A stretch of 31,633 nt of DNA from a virus. Shown here piece by piece: positions 2,556 to 31,297 of this stretch; position 1 is the first letter of the stretch, and each line of letters opens with the position of its first letter. The notes under the pieces were generated by a model. The model did not search any database. It was not told the DNA's origin and saw nothing but the letters and a program-made list of their open reading frames with translations. The position numbers were made by a program, and so were the translations under genes. The DNA lies in the IMG/VR virus record IMGVR_UViG_3300027833_000153, positions 1 to 31,633 of that record. One strand, given 5' to 3'.

Positions 2556-2988
2556 AAAGATAAAAGACACCGCTCTTGGGGCGTGGCTAAGTAGCAAGGC
2601 CCCTTCGTTAGCATCAAAGGTTGGGGATCTCCTGCCTGACAGGGGGGTGCTAGGCATTGTAAAGAACCTAGTGGGTGGGGAGCCCAACATTTCCCCTGAA
2701 GATATGCTTGAGTTCGAGCAGTTGAAGATGCAGCAAGAGATCTCGGCTCAAGAGCAAGTCACACGCAGGTGGGAGGCGGACTCCAAAGGGGATGTACAGC
2801 TGTCTAAGTACATCAGGCCAGCGAGCTTGATTGCTTTGACCTCGTTCTATATGATCGTAACAGTTTGGGATGGGCTCGATGATGACTTCACTCCCCCTCA
2901 GATTTACATCCGACTGCTTGAGCTGCTTATGCTTACCGTATTCGGGGCATACTTCGCAGGTAGAACGATTGAAAAGGTAAAGAGATGA
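2542..2988 (+). CDS. Holin, GTA/3TM-type
   Basis: 148 residues. Residues 60-148 carry the pattern of the 'Holin of 3TMs, for gene-transfer release' family: an amphipathic helix with TRRWEAD, then LSKYIRPASLIALTSFYMI as a membrane segment, a polar loop, and a final hydrophobic helix ending in FGAYFAGRTIEKVKR. The family is thought to make membrane lesions that let the endolysin reach the cell wall. The first 50 residues are soluble and contain GDLLPD and KNLVGGEP, also usual in this family. The ATG lies within the end of the upstream gene and the stop overlaps the next start (ATGA), so translation is probably coupled. It sits among virion genes rather than next to an obvious endolysin. Confidence 0.8.
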   Translation: MPENKKIKDTALGAWLSSKAPSLASKVGDLLPDRGVLGIVKNLVGGEPNISPEDMLEFEQLKMQQEISAQEQVTRRWEADSKGDVQLSKYIRPASLIALTSFYMIVTVWDGLDDDFTPPQIYIRLLELLMLTVFGAYFAGRTIEKVKR

Positions 2989-4394
2989 GATTGAGAAAGA
3001 AGTACCAGAACGGAGGGGGAGTTCCTGGAGGGGATCCAAAGCGCGAAGCAGAGCAGCTTGCCTTTGCTCAACTCTTAAAAGACGAGGCTTTTAAGAAGAA
3101 GCTGGAAGAGAAGATGCGCTTGCGTGATGAGTACGGGGTCTACGCTGACGACGCTGCTGGTCTCCCATCTATCGATCCATTCCTGGCTTTGACTGCAGCG
3201 GGGGATGCAGAAGCCATCGGTTCTGGACTTTCAGAAATGGCTGGTGGAGACCTACTTACTGGAGCAGGAAACGTTATGCTCGGTGCCGCCAGCCTCGCAA
3301 TCCCTGGTACCCTCCCGAAGATTAAGAACGTAAGGGGACTGGATGTAACATTGAGAGACGTTAACATGCCTGCGCATAGAGGCAATGTCGCTGACATAAC
3401 TGTAGGGGACATAGAGCTGGCCAGTATGTCAAGGAATGAAGACGTACTCGTCCAGGGAAGACCGATGTATGAGCCAGACATTAATGCTGGTGCGTCCAAA
3501 CTAGCGGAAAGTAAGGACAGGTTAGCCTATCTAAAAAAGAACGACCCAACATCAAGTGAGATACCAACGCTTGAGAAGAGTCTCATCAATCGACTAGGCA
3601 AGTACCCCGAGGAAGTTGCGGACATGTCGGCGGGGTCTATTAGAAGGGCTATGGCCGATGCGACAAAAGAAATGCTGGATCATGTTCCTATTGGAGCAAA
3701 GACTGGAGCCACGTCATACTCTACAGACTCTTACCCTATTGTATTGCAGCGATGGGCTAAGGGTCAGCTGTCCGCAAACCGATTTGATGACGTCAGCCGA
3801 TTTGAGGGTGACCTATTGAACCAATCTGGAAAGAAATATAAAAACTCTCCTGAGGTAGAGCAGTGGCACAAAAGATACGAGGGCAATGAAGAGGTGGTAG
3901 GGTATTATAACGACGATTTTTTCGACAACACTTTTTCGCCACGCAATCAAATGGATTTCGATCAGTTTACTCGTATCGATCCTGCTGCCAAAGCTGCTGT
4001 AGATGGGAACAATTTAAACAGAGCGGAAGACTTATACGATAAGTACCGTGCTCAAGCAGACAATCCGTTTGGCGTTAGCTCATTCGGTACGTCTGGGTCT
4101 GAGGCCATCTTAGATTTTGATGAGGCTCAAGAACTGGCAGATATATTCAACAAAAGAATTCGTGCCGCTGCTGACAGGAGACCGTCAAAGCAGGCCAATA
4201 TGTTGAAGAGGGGGGACAATAAGGCTAAAGCGCAGATAGGAAAAGACGAAGGTATCCCACTCGCTAAAGTCGTAGACAGAGGGGAGGGGTTCACCATTGT
4301 CTACCCCCAGATTCCGTTCCACAGAAACTTTGAGGAAGGGGGTAAGTTCAAGATCAAAAGGCAGCGCCCGACAGGGATGCAAGTAAAGAGATGA
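2985..4394 (+). CDS. Tagged virion-associated protein of unknown function
   Basis: 469 residues. The N-terminus MRLRKKYQNGG belongs to the tag shared with the late genes at 19879, 20712, 21338, 23296, 24455 and 24901. The C-terminus has EEGGKFKIKRQRP, a basic GG tail like those ending the genes at 19879 and 21338. After the tag comes a charged helix (to about residue 45) and then an Ala/Gly-rich hydrophobic stretch around residues 60-105 which could interact with membrane. The rest is soluble without a recognised catalytic motif. The start is fixed by an ATGA overlap with the holin. The tag suggests it is packaged in or ejected from the particle; that is inference. It is the last gene of the left plus-strand block and is followed by hairpins. 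Confidence 0.75.
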   Translation: MRLRKKYQNGGGVPGGDPKREAEQLAFAQLLKDEAFKKKLEEKMRLRDEYGVYADDAAGLPSIDPFLALTAAGDAEAIGSGLSEMAGGDLLTGAGNVMLGAASLAIPGTLPKIKNVRGLDVTLRDVNMPAHRGNVADITVGDIELASMSRNEDVLVQGRPMYEPDINAGASKLAESKDRLAYLKKNDPTSSEIPTLEKSLINRLGKYPEEVADMSAGSIRRAMADATKEMLDHVPIGAKTGATSYSTDSYPIVLQRWAKGQLSANRFDDVSRFEGDLLNQSGKKYKNSPEVEQWHKRYEGNEEVVGYYNDDFFDNTFSPRNQMDFDQFTRIDPAAKAAVDGNNLNRAEDLYDKYRAQADNPFGVSSFGTSGSEAILDFDEAQELADIFNKRIRAAADRRPSKQANMLKRGDNKAKAQIGKDEGIPLAKVVDRGEGFTIVYPQIPFHRNFEEGGKFKIKRQRPTGMQVKR

Positions 4395-13532: not shown

Positions 13533-13711
13533 GGTTGTTGGTTTTTCCATTCGTCTGCGCGGAATTGGATTTCCGCATCGGAGATTTGCACATAGATATC
13601 AAAGCCTACGTGAACGTATACATATGAGAAGTCGGCCTGATATGCATCCACGTCAATGGACTTGAAGTAATTCAGGCAGTCTTCGATTGTGGACTTGTAT
13701 TGCTTGTTCAT
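13529..13711 (-). CDS. Small phage protein of unknown function
   Basis: 60 residues; MNKQYKSTIEDCLNYFKSID then a Tyr/Val-rich strand region (FSYVYVHVGFDIYVQI) and a short helix. Probably a small alpha/beta protein. ATGA-type overlaps on both sides. Confidence 0.55.
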   Translation of the reverse strand: MNKQYKSTIEDCLNYFKSIDVDAYQADFSYVYVHVGFDIYVQISDAEIQFRADEWKNQQP

Positions 13712-13950
13712 TTTGATTGCTCAGGTAGTTTTTCCCCCATGACCCACCCGAAACAGAACTCGGCAAGGGCTCCCCTGAAGTTCTCCATCTCGGTTCCGTC
13801 ATCATCGAGCGTGTCGGTGACGTCATGATCAAGCAGAAGCCATAGGCGGTCAACAAAATCGCTGTCGAGACTCATTTCATCAATGGCGTTGAATTGTTTG
13901 CGTTGCTTTGGAGTAAGTAGGTCTGTCTTCGTGTATTCGTAGTAGCTCAT
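13708..13950 (-). CDS. Small acidic protein of unknown function
   Basis: 80 residues from MSYYEYTKTDLL at 13950. The open frame extends to 14076 but that part is the tRNA-Arg gene read in-frame, so the start just downstream of the tRNA is chosen. Acidic (DHDVTDTLDDDGTEMENF); ends FCFGWVMGEKLPEQSK. No family recognised. Confidence 0.6.
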   Translation of the reverse strand: MSYYEYTKTDLLTPKQRKQFNAIDEMSLDSDFVDRLWLLLDHDVTDTLDDDGTEMENFRGALAEFCFGWVMGEKLPEQSK

Positions 13951-13964
13951 GTGTTCTGTGTTTG

Positions 13965-14037
13965 TACCCACGGCAGGAATCGAACCTGCGACCGACTGCT
14001 TAGAAGGCAGTTGCTCTATCCCCTGAGCTACGTGGGT
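13965..14037 (-). tRNA. tRNA-Arg(TCT)
   Basis: Complete 73-nt cloverleaf on the minus strand: acceptor ACCCACG/CGTGGGT, D-stem GCTC/GAGC, anticodon stem ACTGC/GCAGT with loop CTTCTAA (anticodon TCT), T-arm GCAGG-TTCGAAT-CCTGC, discriminator A. CCA is not encoded. AGA is a codon used often in the late genes, so the tRNA may supplement the host pool. Confidence 0.95.
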
Positions 14038-14113
14038 GGGGTAGGGGCCTCTCACCCCCTCGACGCACGATGACAAAGTTCAAATGGGTGGTGCGCTCTC
14101 ACCCTCAACACCC

Positions 14114-16266: not shown

Positions 16267-16461
16267 TCAGGGTTGTGGTGGGGGTTGTGGGTTTGACACA
16301 GACGCCTCTCGGCGGGCATACTCCGCCGCTTGCTCGTCAGTCCAAGAGACTGCGCCCTCTTGGTAGCATTCGTCGCACCGCTCGACGTATTCTTTCTCGC
16401 CGAGTGTACGGGTGGTGTGGATGTAGCCTTTGCCGCTACAGGTTTCGCATTGTGTGCTCAT
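16267..16461 (-). CDS. Zinc-ribbon protein with hammerhead-derived 3' end
   Basis: 64 residues from MSTQCETCSGKGYIH at 16461; a longer frame to 16524 is rejected because the upstream gene ends at 16463. CETCSGKGY ... CDEC is a DnaJ-like zinc ribbon. The final 25 codons (from WTDEQAAEYARREASVSN on) are encoded by DNA that matches the 3' half of the two hammerhead ribozymes of this block at 16295-16340, followed by a Pro/Gln tail from the same CCCACAACCCCC leader sequence. So the C-terminus appears to be captured ribozyme/leader DNA. Confidence 0.6.
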   Translation of the reverse strand: MSTQCETCSGKGYIHTTRTLGEKEYVERCDECYQEGAVSWTDEQAAEYARREASVSNPQPPPQP

Positions 16462-27253: not shown

Positions 27254-27533
27254 GAAGTTCACTGCGCTGGATGCAGCGAAGCGGTTGATGGGGAGCATGG
27301 AAGTCGCCATCAATAATATGATCGAGGAGATTAAGAAGCCTGTAGACGCTGAGATAAACGGAAGCGCTCGCAAGGCGGAGCTTCAGTCCATCAAACAAAC
27401 GGCCATCGACTGTAAAGAATTACTTGTGGAAAGGCAAAGGTTGGAACAGATGATGAGAGACCTTACATTGGGCGACGGAGTTTCACCAGATAAAGACTAC
27501 ACGGGTGGCTTCGCAGAAAAATATTCAAAATGA
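27243..27533 (+). CDS. Possible small terminase subunit
   Basis: 96 residues, helical with a coiled-coil-like segment (ELQSIKQTAIDCKELLVERQ...LEQMMRDL), upstream of the large terminase. The resemblance to small terminase subunits is of pattern and position only. Overlaps both neighbours. Confidence 0.4.
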   Translation: MSSKKFTALDAAKRLMGSMEVAINNMIEEIKKPVDAEINGSARKAELQSIKQTAIDCKELLVERQRLEQMMRDLTLGDGVSPDKDYTGGFAEKYSK

Positions 27534-27847
27534 CTTGGCAGAAAGAAGGTTGGGATCGTCTCATGATGTTGTTGGAGGATAATGAATGCCTCTTGGCCGA
27601 TGGATTTAATCAGTCTCTTGTGGGTATTACTCAAGGTGTGAACCCTGTAGCGATCTACGATATAAATCTTATGGTGAATCATCTAGTCGATCAACATGAG
27701 ATGACGCCCGACGATGCTATTGAACACTTAGAGTTCAATGTTGTTGGTGCTTACGTCGGAGAGAAGACGCCAATGTATGTAGCCCTAGACTTTGAAAGAC
27801 TGCAAGATCATGTTAAAGATTATAGCGCTCATAGCTCAGACGGTTAG
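27530..27847 (+). CDS. Small phage protein whose 3' end lies in the tRNA
   Basis: 105 residues. The core (MTWQKEGWDRLMMLLEDNE, VNHLVDQHEMTPDDAIEHLE) is helical and acidic. The last codons (from 27825) and the TAG stop (27845-27847) are inside the tRNA-Met gene, so the C-terminus is tRNA sequence read as protein. Confidence 0.58.
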   Translation: MTWQKEGWDRLMMLLEDNECLLADGFNQSLVGITQGVNPVAIYDINLMVNHLVDQHEMTPDDAIEHLEFNVVGAYVGEKTPMYVALDFERLQDHVKDYSAHSSDG

Positions 27848-29177
27848 AGCATCCGACTCATACTCGGCGGGTCGTGGGTTCAAGTCCTACTGGGCGCACT
27901 TACTTCTAATCTATTTTCCTCTAGCTTCATACGCTCAGTGTGACGTAGATATAATTGATGTCAACCTAAATACCTATGAGGTCACCCTAGAGGTGGTCAA
28001 TAGTGAGGGCTGCGGTATGCAGGGGTATCAGGCGACTCCAGGTGCGATAAACATGCTTATGATTGGGATGCATGTCCCAGGAGTTGATGAACCGTGGGAC
28101 CCAGACGGGCCGTGTGACATGTCCCCTAACTCGAATCACTTAGGTTGGACTTACGGGACTAGTTTAAGTTCAACACCAAACAACTGGGCTAACGACTTCG
28201 ACATAGACATGCCTCTATATAGTGGGGACACGGTTGTGATGCAGTTAGACAATCCATACGGGACAGACTGTGTAAACGACCCTTTCTTGACAGGGGGTAT
28301 AAGCTGCTGTGCTCCTCAGTACATAGACTATTGGATAGGTCTGGGTGAGTGTATCGAGATCGTTATTTGGCAAATCAACTACAGTAACACTTGGTATGCC
28401 GCAGACGGCGGATGGGCTACAACAGGGCCTAATGGGGATGGAACTGATTGGGGTTCTACAGGAACTTACCCTGACCAAGAGATTGAAAACTGGTGGGTGT
28501 CCTGCGAGCAGGCAGGTCCGATATATATAATCGATACGGTTTATGTGGAGGTCCCAGCGGACACAGTCATTCAATCGGATACGATATACATAGACATCTG
28601 GTATTACACTACGGACACTATAGAGGTGTATCTTACTGACACAACCTATCTTGTTGACTATGTGTACGATACAACCTACGTGTATCAGTTGGACACTGTG
28701 CTTGTACCCGATCCAGTGTATGATACAACCTACGTATATAGCGTGGATACAACCTACGTATATAGCGTGGATACAACCTACGTGTATGATCTAGATACGA
28801 TATATGAGTATGTAGTACAAGAAATATGGTTGGATTGTGAAACAGGTATTCCTTGTGACGATCAGCCAGGAATGGGTGAATGTGACGAGGTTAGTGTTTT
28901 TGTCCCAAATGTATTCACTCCAAACAACGATGGTGTTAATGACTCTTTCAATGCTGTCCAGTCAGATCCTTCTTGCTGGTCGGAATGGACGTTAGTCATA
29001 TACAATAGGTGGGGTGCAGTAGTCTTTGATACCAACAACCCTAATGAGCCGTGGGACGGCAGTAATAACGGAGGCGTGAGTTTTGTTCCAGACGGTGTTT
29101 ATGTCTGGGTTATTCAGGGGTCTTCTGTTGTTGGTGGTTCAGTAAATCTTACGGGTACCATACAGATTTTACGATGA
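27810..29177 (+). CDS. T9SS-type-B (CHU/gliding CTD) exported repeat protein
   Basis: 455 residues from the ATG at 27810 (an ATG at 27792 is also open). Only after the tRNA region does a clear secretion signal appear (LLLIYFPLASYAQ, then CDVD). A Cys-containing beta-rich body follows, then TTYVY/DTTYVYSVD repeats (about 280-340) and the C-terminal CHU_C domain (FVPNVFTPNNDGVNDSF, then VIYNRWG and W-D-G...GVYVW). That domain directs proteins to the type IX secretion system and cell surface of Bacteroidetes. Its place next to the terminase makes it either a particle component or a surface protein expressed during infection. ATGA overlap with the terminase gene. Confidence 0.7.
   Translation: MLKIIALIAQTVRASDSYSAGRGFKSYWAHLLLIYFPLASYAQCDVDIIDVNLNTYEVTLEVVNSEGCGMQGYQATPGAINMLMIGMHVPGVDEPWDPDGPCDMSPNSNHLGWTYGTSLSSTPNNWANDFDIDMPLYSGDTVVMQLDNPYGTDCVNDPFLTGGISCCAPQYIDYWIGLGECIEIVIWQINYSNTWYAADGGWATTGPNGDGTDWGSTGTYPDQEIENWWVSCEQAGPIYIIDTVYVEVPADTVIQSDTIYIDIWYYTTDTIEVYLTDTTYLVDYVYDTTYVYQLDTVLVPDPVYDTTYVYSVDTTYVYSVDTTYVYDLDTIYEYVVQEIWLDCETGIPCDDQPGMGECDEVSVFVPNVFTPNNDGVNDSFNAVQSDPSCWSEWTLVIYNRWGAVVFDTNNPNEPWDGSNNGGVSFVPDGVYVWVIQGSSVVGGSVNLTGTIQILR
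27825..27898 (+). tRNA. tRNA-Met(CAT) (elongator or Ile2)
   Basis: 74-nt cloverleaf: acceptor GCGCTCA/TGGGCGC, D-stem GCTC/GAGC, anticodon arm TCCGA-CTCATAC-TCGGC (anticodon CAT; outermost pair mismatched), T-arm GTGGG-TTCAAGT-CCTAC, discriminator A. G1-C72 excludes an initiator. CAT could also be a lysidine-type Ile tRNA. Overlaps two ORFs. Confidence 0.9.
28722..28793 (+). repeat. 24-bp tandem repeat coding DTTYVYSV
   Basis: Unit starts at 28722, 28746 and 28770 (two nearly identical, the third diverging at its end). A looser copy lies at 28668. Encodes the Asp-Thr-Thr-Tyr-Val-Tyr stalk of the exported protein. Confidence 0.75.
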
Positions 29178-31297
29178 ACGCTCTTGTAGATTTAGATGAG
29201 TATGAAGACAAGGCTATTTCGATATGCCCCAGTGGGACGCATGGCGACCACATTGAAGTCGGTGGGCTTCTCATTATCCTTCCCAAGACCCCTAAGGTCA
29301 AGGAGATCTTGTACTACGATTTACCCCCTAAAGATCAATACTGGAGGAGAGCTGATCTTCCCAAGGAGATCTCGCGTATTCGTTCTATGGATGAGTGGGC
29401 GGAAATGCCAAGGGAATTCAGAGAAAAGTTTCGTCCATATATCGAGGAAGAGTTTCGGCGTAGGCGTGAGGGCGTTTGGTTTTATAACCGAGGTGACGCT
29501 ACATACATCACTGGACGTCACTACATGATGCTTCAGTGGTCGGTGCTTGATATTGGAGCACCGTACTACTTAAACTTCCAGAGAGATATCTTTCTTCATT
29601 TGGCAGCATGTGAGGCAGATCCTCGCTGTATAGGACAGCTTTACACCAAGTGTCGTAGATCTGGATACACCAATATATGCTCGTCTGTTATAGTAGACGA
29701 AGCCACTCAGGTAAAGGATAAGCTCCTGGGTATACAGAGTAAAACTGGTAAGGACGCTCAGGAAAACATCTTCATGAAGAAGGTGGTGAATATGTTCCGT
29801 AAGTACCCATTCTTTTTTAAGCCTATTCAAGACGGTACAACAAACCCTAGGATGGAGCTTGCATTTCGAGAGCCATCAAAGAAAATCACAAAAAACAATA
29901 AAACAGCTCAGGTGGGTGACGCATTGAATACTGTCATCAATTGGAAGAACACAACCAATAATGCGTATGACGGGGAGAAGCTACACTTGATGTACTTAGA
30001 CGAGGCAGGTAAGTGGGAGAAGCCTACCGACATAAGGGAGGCATGGAGGATTCAGAGGACCTGCCTAATCGTAGGCAGGAAGATCGTGGGGAAAGCTATG
30101 GTGGGGAGTACGGTAAACCCCATGGGTAAAGGAGGAAGTGAGTACAAAGACCTATGGGAGGACTCGGACCCAGCGGATAGAAATAAGAACGGTAGGACCA
30201 GGAGTGGATTGTATAGGCTATTCATACCTGCGTACGAATCAATGGAGGGGTTCTTTGATTTGTACGGAGGGGCAATCATAGAAGACCCTGAAGAAAACGT
30301 TGAGGGCATCGACGGGGAGTACGTTCATATGGGGGCGAAGACGTTCTTAAAGAACGAGAGGGATAGTCTTAAGCATGACGCATCAGAGTTGAATGAGGTC
30401 ATAAGGCAGTTCCCCTTCACTACGGATGAAGCGTTTAGGGATAGCATAGAGGGCAGCTTATTTAACATAGGTAAGATATATGAGCAGGTTGAGCACAACG
30501 ACTCTCTATACCCAAACCCAGTTGTACAAGGGCAGTTCTCTTGGAAAGGAGGGGTTGAAGACACCGAGGTGGTTTTTACTCCTGACGCTAATGGTAGGTT
30601 CAGAGTGGCGTGGATGCCACCCCCCGAGCTAAGGAATATTAAGGCAAACGACAGGAGTAAAAAGATAGCCCCACACCCACACTTAGGATGCGGAGGTGTA
30701 GATAGCTATGACTTGGACGCTACTGTTGACGGTAGGGGATCTAAGGGGGCTCTACATATGTACAACAAGTTCAACATGCAGGTTCCTGCAAATATGTTTG
30801 TTGTAGAGTATGCGTCCAGACCTCCATTGGCGAGCATCTTCTATGAGGACGTTTTAATGGCGGCTGTTTTTTACGGGTACCCAATCTTAATTGAGAACAA
30901 CAAGTATGGTATAGCTCGTTATTTCGAGTCAAGAGGATACGATGGGTATCTAATGGATCGCCCCTCTCACCTATTGAGTACTAGTTCTAAGGTCAACGTA
31001 AAGACAAAAGGAATACCATCAAACTCCATTGATGTGATTCAGTCTCATGCTCAAGCTATCGAAGCTTATATCCACGATTACGTAGGGGTGAACAGGGATA
31101 CTGGAGAGGTAGGGAACATGTACTTCAATAGAACCCTAGAGGACTGGATCGGATACGACATAAACAATAGAACCAAGTTTGACCTTACGATTAGTTCTGG
31201 CCTGGCTCTTTTAGCCGCTCAAAAAGTGAAGCCTAAAAAGGAGGCTACGTCTTTTGATGAGAAGCGATTCTTTAGACGATATAAGGTGAGGGGTTGA
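29174..31297 (+). CDS. terL: Terminase large subunit (crAss-like)
   Basis: 707 residues. ATPase part: Walker A variant KCRRSGYTN (159-167) that lacks the usual GK[ST], comparable to the KSARVGYS of lambda gpA; Walker B HLMYLDE (271-277); a following motif near W-x-I-Q-R-T. Nuclease part: GVDSYDLD (508-515) with a further acidic residue at E545 (VVEYASRPP). Length and C-terminal NKYGIARYFESRGYDGY agree with crAss-like phages. It packages DNA into the procapsid. Confidence 0.85.
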   Translation: MNALVDLDEYEDKAISICPSGTHGDHIEVGGLLIILPKTPKVKEILYYDLPPKDQYWRRADLPKEISRIRSMDEWAEMPREFREKFRPYIEEEFRRRREGVWFYNRGDATYITGRHYMMLQWSVLDIGAPYYLNFQRDIFLHLAACEADPRCIGQLYTKCRRSGYTNICSSVIVDEATQVKDKLLGIQSKTGKDAQENIFMKKVVNMFRKYPFFFKPIQDGTTNPRMELAFREPSKKITKNNKTAQVGDALNTVINWKNTTNNAYDGEKLHLMYLDEAGKWEKPTDIREAWRIQRTCLIVGRKIVGKAMVGSTVNPMGKGGSEYKDLWEDSDPADRNKNGRTRSGLYRLFIPAYESMEGFFDLYGGAIIEDPEENVEGIDGEYVHMGAKTFLKNERDSLKHDASELNEVIRQFPFTTDEAFRDSIEGSLFNIGKIYEQVEHNDSLYPNPVVQGQFSWKGGVEDTEVVFTPDANGRFRVAWMPPPELRNIKANDRSKKIAPHPHLGCGGVDSYDLDATVDGRGSKGALHMYNKFNMQVPANMFVVEYASRPPLASIFYEDVLMAAVFYGYPILIENNKYGIARYFESRGYDGYLMDRPSHLLSTSSKVNVKTKGIPSNSIDVIQSHAQAIEAYIHDYVGVNRDTGEVGNMYFNRTLEDWIGYDINNRTKFDLTISSGLALLAAQKVKPKKEATSFDEKRFFRRYKVRG

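Follow-up and report, generated by a model that had tools for sequence, protein, structure and literature searches.

A complete tRNA gene overlapping two adjoining protein genes in a tailed-phage genome fragment

In bacteria and phages, functional tRNA genes and coding sequence are normally separate. This also holds for mixed bacterial tRNA-mRNA operons, such as E. coli thrU-tyrU-glyT-thrT-tufB, in which tRNAs share one transcript with a protein gene without entering coding sequence. In animal mitochondria, tRNA excision sets the ends of messages and frees usable messages. Structured elements read in frame as extra protein are known from Rickettsia, where palindromic elements are inserted in frame in protein genes; these elements are repeats, not tRNA genes, and do not lie at the start codon. 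Finally, phage genes with stop/start coupling overlap, the second gene starting within the end of the first.

The locus described here lies in a 31.6 kb viral record (the window, meaning the whole stretch of DNA that was analysed) and resembles each of these systems in part. As in the mixed operons, a tRNA and a protein gene would share a transcript, but here the tRNA is placed within coding sequence; as in mitochondria, tRNA excision would set message ends, but it would damage both neighbours; and as with the Rickettsia elements, a structured element would be read as additional protein, although in this case it is a tRNA gene at a gene start. Overlapping phage genes, as found in the tRNA-free relatives L001 and L096, differ from the window junction in that the latter has a complete tRNA holding one gene's stop and the next gene's coding sequence. 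Other members of the phage group (L043, L044, L069, L076, L152 and L165) also carry AUA- and AGA-reading tRNA-Ile and tRNA-Arg genes in this region, on the upstream side of the terminase gene, but these are located between genes in L152 and L165, and apparently also in the other four. No description of a tRNA overlap of this kind was found in the open-access literature searched, which is the sole scope of this negative result.

The features of the locus are collected in Table 1. The large terminase subunit gene identifies the window as coming from a tailed phage, its product being related to the terminases of Flavobacterium and Cellulophaga phages. Elsewhere in the window, a gene at 26678-27253 matches the phage co-chaperonin GroES family (phrog_13932, Cpn10), and the ORFs at 2985, 19879, 20712, 21332, 24455 and 24901 (also 23218) begin with a near-identical N-terminal motif, e.g., MRLKYQNGG or MRLKKRYQNGGG, a common tag on six or seven otherwise different proteins.

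Table 1. Features of the window at and around the tRNA-bridged junction (L005 and L170 are two further records with the same layout)
Feature	Position	Strand	Remarks
tRNA-Arg (UCU), second tRNA of the fragment	13964..14037	-	ARAGORN, Rfam; outside the junction
Upstream ORF, phrog_13182	27530..27847	+	Function unknown; final codons and stop lie in the tRNA
Secreted-protein ORF	27810..29177	+	Taken from ATG 27810 and running through the tRNA; C-terminal CHU_C domain (type IX secretion)
tRNA, anticodon CAU	27825..27898	+	ARAGORN, Rfam; encodes no CCA
ACG in D-loop	27840..27842	+	In L005/L170 this site is an in-frame ATG that overlaps the upstream stop (ATGGTTAG)
TAG stop of upstream ORF in tRNA D-loop (GGTTAG)	27845..27847	+	Same in L005/L170
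C at tRNA position 38 (CTCATAC)	27863	+	The usual A of CAU tRNAs would create an in-frame TAA
Putative signal-peptide hydrophobic core and c-region, LLLIYFPLASYAQ	27900..27938	+	Compared with homologue signal peptides, e.g., MKRWLLLLYFPLSSYAQ
Large terminase subunit, next gene	29174..31297	+	phrog_6681, E 8.8e-204

The anatomy of the junction can be read directly from the sequence. From its ATG (a TTG lies upstream at 27792), the secreted-protein ORF runs through M-L-K-I-I, 25 tRNA codons (ALIAQTVRASDSYSAGRGFKSYWAH) and then LLLIYFPLASYAQC; the tRNA together with the next C makes exactly 25 codons, with the hydrophobic core directly after, and the ORF ends in a CHU_C domain (PF13585, E 1.6e-17, 63.9 bits against a cut-off of 27). 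The core and AQ site of a putative Sec signal peptide are present and conserved in homologues, and its start region is the tRNA; the predicted leader, 43 residues with two hydrophobic stretches, is unusual. The sequence-only reading had placed the tRNA in frame between M-L-K-I-I and the core with no start codon between them, and ARAGORN, Rfam and the ORF translation agree with it, the codons after the tRNA being TTA CTT CTA ATC TAT TTT CCT CTA GCT TCA TAC GCT CAG, without ATG, GTG or TTG. What it overlooked is that the tRNA also holds the stop of the upstream ORF. Its claim that tRNA processing and translation would be mutually exclusive follows from this layout and applies to the upstream gene as well, since excision would strip the stop from the upstream message and the start from the downstream one.

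The tRNA itself was called by ARAGORN at 27825-27899 and typed as tRNA-Met, and its cloverleaf matches Rfam RF00005 with 63.0 bits (E 1.3e-11), well above the gathering cut-off of 29. While it is a well-formed CAU tRNA, the Met identity given by the earlier reading is doubtful: 57 positions are identical to E. coli ileX as against 50 to the elongator genes metT/metU, the G1-C72 pair is unlike that of an initiator tRNA, and a tRNA reading AUA has an evident use here, so that tRNA-Ile2, the type with a lysidine-modified CAU anticodon, is the more likely identity. AUA makes up 26% of the Ile codons of the fragment and AGA/AGG half of its Arg codons, a usage that suits tRNAs reading AUA and AGA. 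BLAST of the tRNA against E. coli gave only weak tRNA-Val matches, and an exact pattern of its core had no match in the viral contigs; a degenerate pattern of the 3' half matched L005 and the contig of L170 and nothing else. The tRNA-Arg(UCU) gene of the window lies inside the 5' part of a mechanically called ORF (13708-14076); in many relatives a tRNA-Arg(UCU) is kept beside the terminase gene.

A complete tRNA abutting the hydrophobic core in frame was found in only three records, the window and the pair L005/L170. The latter, from two metagenomes, carry a tRNA-Ile(UAU) with its cloverleaf kept (59.9 bits with RF00005 in L005) in the same place and frame, identical to the window tRNA at 58 of 75 positions. 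Their upstream gene ends at the same stop in the D-loop, and the D-loop also has an ATG in the secreted-protein frame. Because the arrangement recurs in these records, the tRNA junction is a real, shared feature and no assembly accident. If the window tRNA decodes AUA, it would be equivalent to the UAU tRNA of L005. Between the two tRNAs, four anticodon-stem pairs and one acceptor pair are changed on both sides with pairing kept and 95% of cells paired, a retention reached by 67 of 500 shuffles in a comparison of only two sequences, and the first anticodon-stem pair is non-standard in both. Judged by score, cloverleaf and two-sided changes, the window tRNA is probably a working gene. The residues common to the window and L005 (IAQ, VRA, GRGFK) are encoded by near-invariant tRNA nucleotides and would be shared with or without conservation as protein. 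A Plastid-ycf2 match on the minus strand of L005 in the Rfam search was below the cut-off and was set aside as an artefact of tRNA similarity.

The body of the secreted-protein gene is intact (about 400 codons) in the window, L005 and L170. L005 and L170 are identical over the 138 lead bases and 88% identical in the gene body (dN 0.032, dS 0.65). Their divergence is uneven, about 5% near the junction and flanks and 12% in the body, where it reaches 15 of 60 bases; at about 2741-3340 the body rises far above the flanks, mostly at third codon positions. Allele exchange by recombination within the body is probable, and since the body seems to have exchanged alleles, the purifying selection seen between the two may partly be older than the junction.

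About 70 distinct upstream junctions of the secreted-protein family (73 sequences in one count) were available for comparison. Most have an ordinary short signal peptide with its own start (MKRW-LLLLYFP-SSYAQ; e.g., MKRWLLLLYFPLSSYAQ), the n-regions of tRNA-free homologues including MKRW..., MRICTG... and MRHRSPRRV...; in L001 the start MRICTGLLILLWVSSPLYSQ overlaps the end of the upstream gene, and in L082 and its kin MKERLFAIWLLILSAASSAQ begins shortly 3' of a separate tRNA-like element. This element (position 16332-16408 of the L082 record, 26.3 bits, under the Rfam cut-off) has a clear T arm and acceptor stem and an odd D arm. The ATG at 27810 is not homologous to the start codon of the tRNA-free relatives. 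A search of genome contigs with the whole secreted protein gave no match other than to the CHU_C domain of bacterial proteins. Over its first 200 codons the window gene shares 94.5% of residues with L081 (dN 0.031, dS 1.03); as the body is nearest L081 in its first half and the window terminase nearest L001, the gene is, on these comparisons, a mosaic.

The earlier reading that the tRNA was inserted at the gene start, splitting a signal peptide, is borne out in part: the tRNA is patchy and absent from many homologues, but its arrival would be a replacement of the original start and n-region at a gene-gene junction and no splitting, since tRNA-free homologues have a short n-region of their own and the predicted joint of MLKII(A) with LLLIYF was absent from all of the roughly 70 distinct junctions. 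The tRNA may have recombined onto the gene start or been fused there by deletion. The window does not group as sister to L005/L170 in the terminase tree, and the patchy junction needs two changes on it; a single origin would nevertheless be compatible with the well-supported branches. In L171, a 40 kb record in which no tRNA was found, the sequence at the junction is similar to the 5' half of the tRNA (1 and 8 of 2000 shuffles were as good), and its only in-frame start lies in this stretch, at the place of the L005 D-loop ATG, giving MPNIRH-LLLLLW. The stretch is possibly a tRNA remnant kept as a start region, or it may be an old part of the junction that offered the short homology by which the tRNA was joined to it. 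In L010, which is close to L171 and has neither tRNA nor secreted-protein gene, the upstream protein ends in a somewhat similar way (NHSIED*), so the L171 similarity may reflect old coding sequence, not a remnant.

The best explanation, with close to an even chance of being correct, is that an AUA-reading phage tRNA lies across a two-gene junction and that the same RNA has two exclusive uses. The upstream gene, the tRNA and the secreted-protein gene would be transcribed as one RNA, and each molecule would then yield either the tRNA or the proteins, since excision takes both the upstream stop and the downstream start. If tRNA-processing enzymes cut the transcript, the tRNA would be freed and both signals lost; if it stays uncut, ribosomes would end the upstream gene at the D-loop TAG and the CHU_C protein would be translated from an in-frame start before the tRNA (ATG 27810 in the window; in L005/L170 the D-loop ATG is the more likely start). 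In the window, the translated tRNA would supply a long n-region with basic residues (VRA...GRGFK) before the hydrophobic core of the exported protein.

How much the open frame through the tRNA says depends on how often tRNAs are open. In the window tRNA, a TAG at positions 8-10 and another at 21-23 close two of the three frames, and only frame 1, that of the secreted-protein gene, is open. Of the 49 distinct tRNAs at the loci retrieved, 11 can be read through in frame 1, three in frame 3 and none in frame 2; the open ones are mostly tRNA-Ile, and frame 1 is open in all nine distinct UAU tRNAs. A tRNA is thus not bound to be open in the frame that the gene requires, but for a tRNA-Ile this is expected about once in three. 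This suits the alternative that the frame is incidental, the start having been lost when the tRNA arrived and the secreted-protein gene being silent or made without a signal peptide, and so do the loss of the start codon of the tRNA-free relatives and the patchiness of the junction on the terminase tree. The body, however, is intact in all three phages, and between L005 and L170, both of which have the junction, it shows purifying selection; we consider this alternative unlikely.

It is also rather unlikely that ribosomes stopping at the D-loop TAG re-initiate inside the tRNA, at the D-loop ATG in L005/L170 and at the corresponding ACG in the window, leaving ATG 27810 unused. The D-loop ATG of L005/L170 (MVRAGSLYGQGRGFKPHW-VYLLLLIPM) overlaps the upstream stop just as ATGGCTAG does in L033 and ATGCCTAA does in L171, both without a tRNA, and an ATG at this place is the sole in-frame start in L171; the window, however, has ACG there, a very poor start codon, with an in-frame ATG 30 bases upstream.

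Another possibility, which appears improbable, is a dead tRNA copy kept only as n-region coding sequence. The non-standard first anticodon-stem pair of both copies would fit this, as would C38: in the CAU tRNAs of 61 Bacteroidota genomes position 38 is A at more than 100 places and C, G or T at one, and A38 in the window tRNA would read TCA-TAA in the gene frame. But both copies score 60-63 bits and have kept their pairing through two-sided changes, and C38 need not reflect the reading frame, being present in most non-embedded UAU tRNAs of relatives. As proof of a coding constraint C38 was rejected for this reason, and it is suggestive but not proof that the frame has left its mark; two CAU tRNAs with C38 in other viral contigs have no comparable open frame.

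Least probable is the unusual start after processing suggested earlier, a tRNA-punctuated leaderless message read from a non-AUG codon near the 3' cut: L005 has GTG and TTG at and just after the tRNA end, but the window has no recognised start codon there or anywhere before the end of the hydrophobic core, and 12 codons without a basic residue before the cleavage-site Gln are too short for a Sec signal peptide.

In conclusion, it is a tentative but real possibility that a working tRNA doubles as signal-peptide coding sequence and as the upstream stop, its maturation acting as a switch between the tRNA and two proteins for each transcript. If true, two genes would have their expression coupled to tRNA maturation, the starts and stops of such genes would be misplaced by gene callers that mask tRNAs, and the junction would illustrate the extent that gene overlap can reach.
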